In this document: in pieces, positions 19,766 to 22,092 of the stretch
Numbering within the stretch: position 1 is the first letter of the stretch
Layout of the letters: every line of letters starts with the position of its first letter
Assembly (NCBI GenBank): GCA_002696735.1
Contig: NZSL01000010.1
Span: 265,571-329,570 of the forward strand
Direction of reading: 5' to 3'
DNA: 64,000 nucleotides
From: Methylophaga sp.
GTDB taxonomy: Bacteria; Pseudomonadota; Gammaproteobacteria; Nitrosococcales; Methylophagaceae
The notes under the pieces: generated by a model
Databases searched by the model: none
Told to the model about the DNA's origin: nothing
What the model saw: only the letters and a program-made list of their open reading frames with translations
Program-made: the position numbers and the translations under genes

Positions 19766-20367
19766 TGACTTTACGGGTTGATTTACAAATTATCAGTGAC
19801 TGGATCCCAGACAATGCCCACGTGCTCGATCTGGGTTGCGGCAATGGATCTTTGTTAAAACATCTGCAGCAACGCAATGTTACCGGTTATGGTCTAGAAA
19901 TAGATAACAGCAAATTTTCCGAATGTATTGCCGGTGGTGTCAACGTTATACAAGCAGACTTGGATGAAGGTCTCAGTCAGTTCGGTGATCAGAGCTTTGA
20001 TTTTGTTATTTTGTCACAAACCCTTCAGGCCGTTAAACGTCCCGACTTTTTACTGAGAGAAATCATGCGGGTTGGCAAGCAGGGAATTATCGGTTTTCCT
20101 AATTTCGGACATTGGCAATGCCGTTTTCAACTAGGGTTACGAGGTAAAATGCCGGTATCCAAAAACCTGCCAAATGCCTGGTTTGATACACCCAATATTC
20201 ATTTATGTACGTTGAAAGATTTTGAAAAGCTCTGTGACCAATATGGTTTTAGTGTGGTGAGCCGCAGTGTCGTTAATCACGAACATAAAGATACGCTTGG
20301 TATTCGCTTATTACCTAACCTGTTCGGCCAGATAGCTGTTTATTTGATTCATAACGGAAACTCATGA
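19765..20367 (+). CDS. metW: Methionine biosynthesis protein MetW
   Basis: This is a 200-residue SAM-dependent methyltransferase-fold protein with motif [14 protein letters not shown] near residue 20. MetW is encoded with MetX and is needed with it for homoserine acylation in several proteobacteria; its own methyl-transfer reaction is not established. It starts on the last base of the metX stop and overlaps pyrE by four bases (ATGA). Confidence 0.92.
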
Positions 20368-21005
20368 AAGATTATCAACGCGACTTTATCGAATTCGCCT
20401 TAGCAACCGGCGTTTTACGCTTTGGTGAATTTACCCTCAAATCCGGACGCATCAGCCCTTATTTTTTTAACAGTGGCTTGTTTAACAGCGGTGCAACACT
20501 GGCTCGGCTGGGACGTTTTTACGCACAGGCGATAACCGAATCCGCGCTTGATTTTGATGTGTTGTTTGGCCCAGCCTATAAAGGTATCCCGTTAGCATCC
20601 ACTGCAGTTATCGCACTGGCCGACCAGCATGATCGCGATGTACCTTATGTATTTAACCGCAAAGAGAAAAAAGATCATGGTGAAGGCGGACAGCTGGTCG
20701 GCGCCGCTCTTAACGGTAAGGTACTAATAATTGATGATGTAATTTCCGCCGGGACCTCCGTAGGAGAATCTGTCGATATCATTCGCGCAGCAGGCGCTGA
20801 ACCAGCAGGTGTCATTATTGCACTCGATCGTCAGGAACGTGGTCAGGGCGAATTATCCGCTATTCAACAGGTAGAGCAAACGCATAAGATCCCCGTCGTC
20901 AGTATTATCTGTCTCAATGACTTACTCAGCTATCTGCAGGATCATCCCGACTTGCAACGACATTTAGCTGCGGTAAAAGCCTATCGGGAACGATATGGGG
21001 TCTAG
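20364..21005 (+). CDS. pyrE: Orotate phosphoribosyltransferase
   Basis: PyrE converts orotate and PRPP to orotidine monophosphate in pyrimidine synthesis. The 213-residue protein shows the PRPP-binding motif [13 protein letters not shown] and the catalytic loop region [12 protein letters not shown]. Its TAG stop lies in a CTAG that is the left target-site copy of an inserted repeat element. The coding sequence is nevertheless full length, ending ...RYGV as in homologues. Confidence 0.95.
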
Positions 21006-21333
21006 GGTCTGTTGATCTTTCATAGCCGCCTCTGTTGTGACTGAAAATGCACCAATCAAGGCGCGAGGAATGCAGTTTGTGAGATACATCCATGTATCTC
21101 ACCCCTAAGGGGCTTACGCTCAAAAACGTTCCTGACGTTTTTGTAGTTGTTCTAAATAAATAACGAGTAACGCTGAGTGGTGCATTTTCAGCCACAACCC
21201 GAAGGGCTGGGACTATTTTTCCGCCCCACAGCGTTGGAAATGACTTATGTAGAACAACTACATCGCATCATTTCCGCCTTGTGAGACAAAAAAATAGCCT
21301 TCAGCAGAGGTGGCTTTGAAAGATCAACAGACC
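21006..21333. mobile_element. MITE-like element with 29-bp terminal inverted repeats and CTAG duplication
   Basis: A 328-bp non-coding element. Its ends, starting GGTCTGTTGATCTTTCA on each strand, match over 29 bases with two mismatches. CTAG directly flanks both ends (21002-21005 and 21334-21337) and reads as a target-site duplication. The inside is packed with perfect inverted repeats: 21079-21102 (11-bp arms), 21121-21143 (9-bp arms), 21143-21154 with 21250-21261, 21236-21243 with 21268-21275, and 21034-21054 with 21178-21198 (one mismatch). No transposase frame is present; the 89-aa frame crossing it is not convincing. The YTAR-type target suggests mobilisation by an IS5-like transposase, which is inference. 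Confidence 0.8.
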
Positions 21334-22092
21334 CTAGGGCCCCCAAATTAATCTGATGGCAATTAATAAGGTCACAATTTCAAAGCTGCGTTTTATCCAG
21401 CGGTTGCCCCAACGCAACGCCAAATGGGATCCCAGATAACCACCCAATAACGATCCTAACAGTAACGCAGGAAGCCAGTCCCATTGTATTTCGCCTAGAA
21501 TACCCAACGTAATCGCGCCTGCACCATTCCAAAATAATCCAACCAGAATCAGCGTGTAAGCAACGGCCCGCTGGTAATCCATGCCAAACCATAATATCAG
21601 CCATATGGTCACAAACAGCCCGGTTCCCGAGGTGAGCGAGCCATTGAGAATGCCCAGAATAAACAATACAACTGCACCAATCAGGTAACCATGGCGCTCA
21701 CGATTTAACGGCGTGTATAACTGACCTAAAGCCGGTTTAAATAAAGAATATATGCCTAATGATCCGGTTAATACGCCCAGGGCAATCTCTGCGATTCGAT
21801 CTGGTACCATTAATATCACACTGCCGCCGATCACTACCCCCGGCAGGCCGGCCACCAAGAGCAATATCACAAACTGACGTTCAAGTCGGCTGGTAGAGAT
21901 GTAACGCAATGCTGCGCCTACCCCTAACGCTACACTGGCCACTTTATGGGTGGCTAAAGCCACAGAAAAGGTCAAGCCAAGGAATATCAAAACCGGGAAC
22001 TGGATTAATCCTGCACCGCCGCCACTTAATGCCGAAAAAGTATTTGCCAGCAAAGAAATGACAAACAGAATAAAATGTTCAATAAAGCTCAA
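21334..22092 (-). CDS. TauE/SafE (TSUP) family anion exporter
   Basis: This is a 252-residue membrane protein with about eight hydrophobic segments in two homologous halves. It carries family motifs (FSALSGGGAGLIQFPVL near the start and NGSLTSGTGLFVTIWL in the second half). TSUP members export sulfite, sulfoacetate or other small organic anions; the substrate here is unknown. The start appears to be TTG at 22092, since no ATG precedes the first membrane helix. The gene is 27 bases from a divergent DUF4124 gene. Its stop codon lies in the right CTAG copy flanking the MITE-like element. Confidence 0.85.
   Translation of the reverse strand: MSFIEHFILFVISLLANTFSALSGGGAGLIQFPVLIFLGLTFSVALATHKVASVALGVGAALRYISTSRLERQFVILLLVAGLPGVVIGGSVILMVPDRIAEIALGVLTGSLGIYSLFKPALGQLYTPLNRERHGYLIGAVVLFILGILNGSLTSGTGLFVTIWLILWFGMDYQRAVAYTLILVGLFWNGAGAITLGILGEIQWDWLPALLLGSLLGGYLGSHLALRWGNRWIKRSFEIVTLLIAIRLIWGP

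Follow-up and report, generated by a model that had tools for sequence, protein, structure and literature searches.

The window, that is the whole 64,000-nucleotide stretch of Methylophaga sp. DNA that was analysed, contains two convergent genes separated by a long palindromic spacer. The first, pyrE (20364..21005, plus strand), encodes an orotate phosphoribosyltransferase of 213 aa and ends GTC TAG (TIGR00336, 206.8 bits for a cut-off of 106.8). The second, a TauE/SafE-family gene (tauE; 21334..22092, minus strand), encodes 252 aa ending GP* (PF01925, 141.6 bits for a cut-off of 32.6) and is closest, in a named collection, to the genes of Methylophaga sp. UBA2689 (97%), M. muralis (93%) and others. 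Between them lies a MITE of 330 bp, reading GGG...CCC (21005..21334, no strand assigned), which carries no transposase gene and was delimited from its ends and from its family copies. The original prediction had placed a 328-bp core at 21006-21333, inside this element, framed by CTAG at both 21002-21005 and 21334-21337, with both genes ending in TAG at the element ends; the sequence and the ORFs confirmed the two CTAG and the two stops. The sequence, together with the TA rule deduced below from copies and empty sites, places the left and right copies of a duplicated TA target at 21003..21004 and 21335..21336 (no strand assigned). The pyrE stop consists of the left TA and element base G21005, and the tauE stop (CTA on the plus strand, TAG on the minus strand, read from 21336 to 21334) of the right TA and element base C21334.

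The element is bounded by a left terminal inverted repeat at 21005..21037 (plus strand), whose first 16 bp match the G014 partner insertion sequence described below at 15 positions, and by a right one at 21302..21334 (minus strand), defined by comparison of the arms and of the partner ends. With 330 bp, 33-bp arms within the element and no transposase ORF, it has the features of a MITE. Complementarity reaches 92% for the 36-bp arms 21002-21037 / 21302-21337 and 88% for the arms 20997-21037 / 21302-21342. Two internal inverted repeats (no strand assigned) are found at 21142..21262 (arms 21142-21180 / 21224-21262, 74% complementary) and at 21034..21198 (arms 21034-21058 / 21174-21198, 92% complementary). 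The window has about sevenfold fewer CTAG than its base composition predicts (33 vs 245 expected), so that two CTAG framing an inverted repeat are not a matter of chance. A scan of the window with an 18-nt element end, allowing up to 4 mismatches, yielded no further site, and a plasmid collection searched with the element gave no match.

The pyrE/tauE spacer is a long imperfect palindrome with a strong predicted fold (z -13.4 vs 100 shuffles), and three terminator-like sites were detected for 0.6 expected. It is thus conceivable that the element was kept as a bidirectional hairpin terminator or an mRNA-stability element between the convergent genes. We consider this improbable: the three matches are to a weak consensus, the Rfam scan of 20800-21600 returned no family above its gathering score (best 11.4 bits for a gathering score of 50), and 20 of the 23 congeners have no such insert between pyrE and tauE. 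The promoter scan returned 0 promoters.

Copies of the element and their target site

The genome of origin (G000, 3.30 Mb in 19 contigs) was searched for further copies. BLAST returned 85 pieces of the element there, a figure that includes matches of copies to themselves in inverted orientation, and the 17-nt element end matched at 169 places when up to 3 mismatches were allowed, vs 7 for the reversed control. The inverted repeats and this multicopy family uphold the earlier view of a MITE-like mobile element. Copies were taken by similarity or among the end matches listed (97 of 169) and represent a sample, not a full census. In length they form groups of about 330, 315 and 264 bp, some copies are longer, and a further class of 45-58 bp consists of little more than two element ends. 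Such 45-58 bp palindromes are many in G000 (L080:1177-1231, L081, L082, L085-L088 and others), and four of them (L080, L081, L082, L087) sit at the stops of long frames. Five G000 contigs (C4, C6, C8, C9, C10) have a copy within some 200 bases of their start or end; the copies therefore seem to break the assembly, which makes the counts lower bounds. Tandem copies at L007:1422-1948 (G000:C7:314119-314650) appear to share the intervening CTAG, and an inserted element may in this way offer a fresh target at each end.

Copies were also present in the congeners G006-G009 and G012-G014, with pieces in G011, G017 and G019. Exact matches to the element end occurred in 9 of the 57 family genomes, in three of four genera; of the places looked at, those in genus g3 contain elements of 82 and 265 bp flanked by TA, and the one in genus g4 is at a contig end. 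The window copy shares 93-94% identity with copies in G008 and G009, and pyrE+tauE identity between G000 and G009 is only 81%. On a weakly supported tree the copies do not sort by species, a pattern that would follow either from spread among species or from a slow rate of change. One site is common to L013 (G000), L146 (G007), L154 (G009) and L166 (G008), which cluster as the same insertion, located at the TTAG stop of a long ORF about 10 bp before an ATG possibly starting the next gene; it is empty in G019, and one of its hosts, G009, differs by 19% in pyrE+tauE. This is an old insertion kept in place.

The target site was deduced from 92 copies in the fetched loci, a set made up of non-overlapping candidates at least 120 bp from a locus end and to which the single G014 stretch fetched (L173) contributed no copy. 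TA was found at both ends in 53 of them. Among these 53, the inner base was nearly fixed (left G in 50, right C in 53) and the outer base varied within a class (left C/T in 50, right G/A in 48), left TTAG being often paired with right CTAG and left CTAG with right CTAA. Near-fixed inner bases and variable outer ones indicate that the element proper runs from GGG to CCC, that the TA around it is the duplicated target, and that YTAR sites are preferred. The remaining 39 of 92 lack TA at one or both ends today, which we take, as an assumption, to be decay.

The IS5 group makes 4-bp YTAR repeats, unlike IS427-like elements, and the original prediction had taken CTAG itself as the target duplication. 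The window flanks, CTAG on either side, agree with a 4-bp duplication by an IS5-group transposase as well as with a 2-bp one by an IS427-like transposase. Identical flanking 4-mers were found, however, in only 16 of the 53 TA-intact copies, on which ground the CTAG duplication was rejected in favour of TA; the inner bases are nearly fixed, the partner transposase is of the NF033580 type, and excerpts of PMC3281130 give 2-bp repeats for 10 of 11 IS427-group elements of Paracoccus. A 4-bp duplication is for these reasons very improbable.

Empty counterparts of nine sites were sought in 11 congeners. At four of the nine, the flanks joined at one TA aligned to the relatives without a gap at the joint: L079 with G008; L013 with G019; L019 with G007, G008, G006, G009 and G019; and L003 with G007, G006 and G013. 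Some of these alignments have a small gap several bases off the junction. L013 with G014, L003 with G012 and L002 with G009 did not give a clean single TA, L012 with G007 proved not to be an empty site, and the remaining searched sites had no spanning alignment among the loci compared.

A partner insertion sequence and the proposed mechanism

A partner insertion sequence (IS) was found with the PF13586 profile in the 24 genomes of the genus and then confirmed by protein search. In G014, locus L114 (1455-2336) holds an intact IS of 882 bp with perfect ends of 17 bp (20 with CTA) and a transposase encoded by an intact single ORF of 253 aa; the other copy, at L122 of G007, is 82% identical to it and has a diverged right end. 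Both transposases belong to NF033580, 'IS5 family transposase' (268 and 272 bits for a cut-off of 110), and have the domains PF13340 (DUF4096), PF01609 (DDE_Tnp_1) and PF13586 above cut-off. Between the MITE and the G014 IS, 15 of 16 end positions are identical, and the left end of the G007 copy matches at 14 of 16. The interiors of the MITE and of the G014 IS are unrelated; the MITE as an internal deletion of the partner was rejected, only the outermost 16-19 bp being common. L114 is flanked as CTA/GGG...CCC/TAG, that is by a 2-bp TA duplication. Two overlapping ORFs with a frameshift are common in the IS427 group and were not treated as defining. The partner instead has its single 253-aa ORF, and the assignment was therefore kept at 'IS427-like'; ISPha1 is a single-ORF member according to excerpts of PMC3281130.

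The distribution of the partner differs from that of the MITE. Its protein was matched in 4 of the 24 genus genomes, two of which have only decayed copies, and is absent from G008 and G009, though many MITE copies are there. In the genome of origin it had 0 matches, given that contig ends lie near copies and that a gap could hide one; the PF01609 profile likewise detected none there, nor did the PF13586 profile run on the 24 genomes. Since this genome gave no transposase match, we infer the mobilisation of the MITE, and the family looks stranded there, an assembly gap reserved. RUP goes with an IS630-type element; unlike RUP, the present family has an IS5-type partner. A partner of the IS630 type (PF13358) was tried as a candidate and rejected, with 0 of the 24 genus genomes containing one. 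G007 has, separately, a different multicopy IS5-type IS with two adjacent frames, of about 826 bp between TGTCGTCACG ends at L113, L120 and L123, where the ends were found, and with the same frame at L117, L119 and L121.

Taken together, these results point, with a probability of about 0.88, to a non-autonomous MITE of the IS5 superfamily (IS427-like), moved in trans by an NF033580-type transposase into the TA of YTAR; it is probably this kind of transposase that moved the window copy. Such a transposase, supplied in trans, would recognise the MITE ends GGGTCTGTTGATCTTT, which would be joined into the TA within YTAR at the pyrE/tauE junction, and repair would duplicate the TA. Read from either strand, the element starts with G, and each TA is thereby completed to TAG for the gene running into that end. 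TA plus terminal G being TAG, a TA inside a TAA or TAG stop can take the element with the stop kept, and a YTAR common to two convergent genes could take it for both.

Insertion at stop codons

pyrE and tauE are convergent and adjacent in 24 of 24 genomes, and the proposal that an insertion in their junction left each gene with its own TAG was borne out. The proposed state before insertion, a single CTAG with overlapping stops, is not what the nearest empty relatives carry: G006 and G013, without the element, read GTC TGA GAT TTA G, with separate stops 3 bp apart. This goes part of the way to what the original prediction had itself named as a refutation, a different and longer intergenic region in relatives; on the other side, 4-bp overlapping CTAA/TTAA stops occur in eight more distant congeners (G002, G003, G010, G011, G012, G016, G017, G018). 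In G019 the two stops are 2 bp apart.

The junction has been a target more than once, with three different insertions among the seven closest species. G007 and G008 have a related element in opposite orientation at TTAG (the tauE stop), and read TTA/GGG...CCC/TAG where G006 and G013 have plain TTAG, as the TA rule predicts; G009 has a truncated related element, also in opposite orientation. On a pyrE+tauE tree, built with one congener omitted (G011, partial tauE), the window grouped with G007 and G008 (support 100), which paired together with a support of 73. As they share the junction and are closest relatives, the window element and that of G007/G008 might be one insertion, later inverted or replaced by gene conversion. 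This seems unlikely, since the orientation is opposite, the matching pieces are 79-88% identical vs 93-94% for copies elsewhere, and the flanks differ by 7 and 3 bp.

Set against G006, G013, G007 and G008, the window is missing 7 bp on the side of pyrE and one codon (3 bp) on that of tauE; the 7-bp difference recurs in G009. The claim that neither protein was changed holds for pyrE, whose length and GV end are kept, and by comparison fails for tauE, which ends GP* in the window, one residue shorter than the GPF* of G006, G007, G008, G009 and G013, a loss that may have come with the insertion or at another time. If these losses preceded the insertion, the target was a single CTAG with overlapping stops; if they followed it, the target was the tauE stop TTAG and the element's TAG later became the pyrE stop. 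The window insertion may have used an already overlapping site, rather than the YTAR of the tauE stop with net losses of 7 and 3 bp at some other time. Insertion into overlapping stops implies an empty allele GGGGTCTAG(AAA)GGCCCCC at this junction, and an empty allele GGGGTCTGAGWTTTAGAAWGG would fit 7 and 3 bp lost with or after the insertion.

Entry into overlapping stops, the mechanism originally put forward, is directly supported at another junction, for the partner IS rather than for the MITE. In G014 the IS separates ppc from a convergent PqiA-domain gene, and each of the two genes has its TAG stop at an IS end. A second protein search identified 11 congeners with a close PqiA homologue, and six of these have insert-free overlapping YTAR stops at the ppc/pqiA junction (TTAG in G021 and G022; CTAG in G020; TTAA in G001, G004 and G005). 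In G023 the TAG of ppc precedes the second stop by a few bases, the two genes of G016 and G018 are spaced further apart, and G011 and G017 have no ppc in the stretch compared.

The frequency of insertion at stops was then estimated. A frame of at least 100 open codons ended at the junction stop for 15 of the 54 copies examined in the genome of origin. Across five genomes, 18 of 77 site clusters were at stop codons, 77 being a slight undercount because repeated flanks join a few sites (L004/L006; L007/L163). In 264 kb of the genome of origin, stops made up 69-70 of 509-691 non-coding YTAR sites (10.1-13.6%), a share which varies with the smallest ORF called a gene. The excess is modest, about twofold over expectation (binomial P 0.0006-0.013, Fisher P 0.002-0.037), and weakest with the most generous gene calling (P = 0.013 and 0.037, respectively); it comes from a sample picked by element similarity, and genes were taken as ORFs rather than from curated annotation. 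Among the 56 sites with a copy of 200 bp or more, 13 were at stops (binomial P 0.003-0.034). Double-stop sites were 1 of 77 vs 2 of 622 in the background, numbers too few for comparison.

Part or all of this excess may reflect tolerance rather than preference. For a TA-targeting element that survives only outside genes, about 10-14% of insertions would be at stops in any case, and in pneumococcus repeats and IS elements, among them RUP and SPRITE, are over-represented between convergent genes, which excerpts of PMC3049150 explain by tolerance. The chances that the placement arose by chance and selection against insertions in genes, with no stop preference, are close to even, if slightly short of it; against it stand the 18 of 77 seen, with P from 0.0006 to 0.037 according to gene calling and test, the agreement of the subset of longer copies, and the three different insertions at pyrE/tauE. 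More tentatively, TA/YTAR targeting combined with G-starting ends may have provided a niche at stop codons, where harmless entry into TAA or TAG, shared stops included, aided a high copy number in the compact Methylophaga genomes.

Relation to known elements

The open-licence literature searched contained no description of this Methylophaga MITE family, nor the rule that TA plus a terminal G rebuilds TAG for both convergent genes. What emerges is a family of MITEs, a likely partner of the IS5 type, and a simple rule by which a TA target and a terminal G give a rebuilt TAG. The rule accounts for the entry of a mobile element into densely coding DNA, overlapping convergent stops included, with little or no damage, and it is testable wherever a genome contains TA-targeting elements with G or A as the first base of their ends.

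The partner resembles the IS427 group (ISPsp10, IS1248, ISPpa2) in its short inverted ends, its TA duplication and its size, 882 bp vs the 832-865 bp given in excerpts of PMC3281130 for 11 of 11 Paracoccus elements. In the excerpted account of ISPsp10 (PMC4133298), a member of that group inserted immediately before a TAA and duplicated TA, and its transposase ends in the target's stop codon. The present case differs from this account in that ISPsp10 takes the target stop for its own transposase, whereas here the G of the element goes to the host stops. The MITE is like the TA-duplicating bacterial MITEs (Correia elements, RUP and Nezha), which excerpts of PMC4133298 and PMC3049150 present as small, palindromic, multicopy, usually TA-flanked and devoid of a transposase, a likeness by description and not by end sequences. 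It is also like the BOX repeats of pneumococcus, which according to excerpts of PMC3049150 encode the stop codon of 36 genes, in that a repeat supplies the stop of the preceding gene; unlike BOX as described there, the present element gives only the third base of the stop and serves both convergent genes. The family thus fits kinds already known, namely IS427-group elements, MITEs and stop-supplying repeats, and adds a new, if ordinary, sort of mini-transposon to those of bacteria, one whose way of landing does almost no harm.
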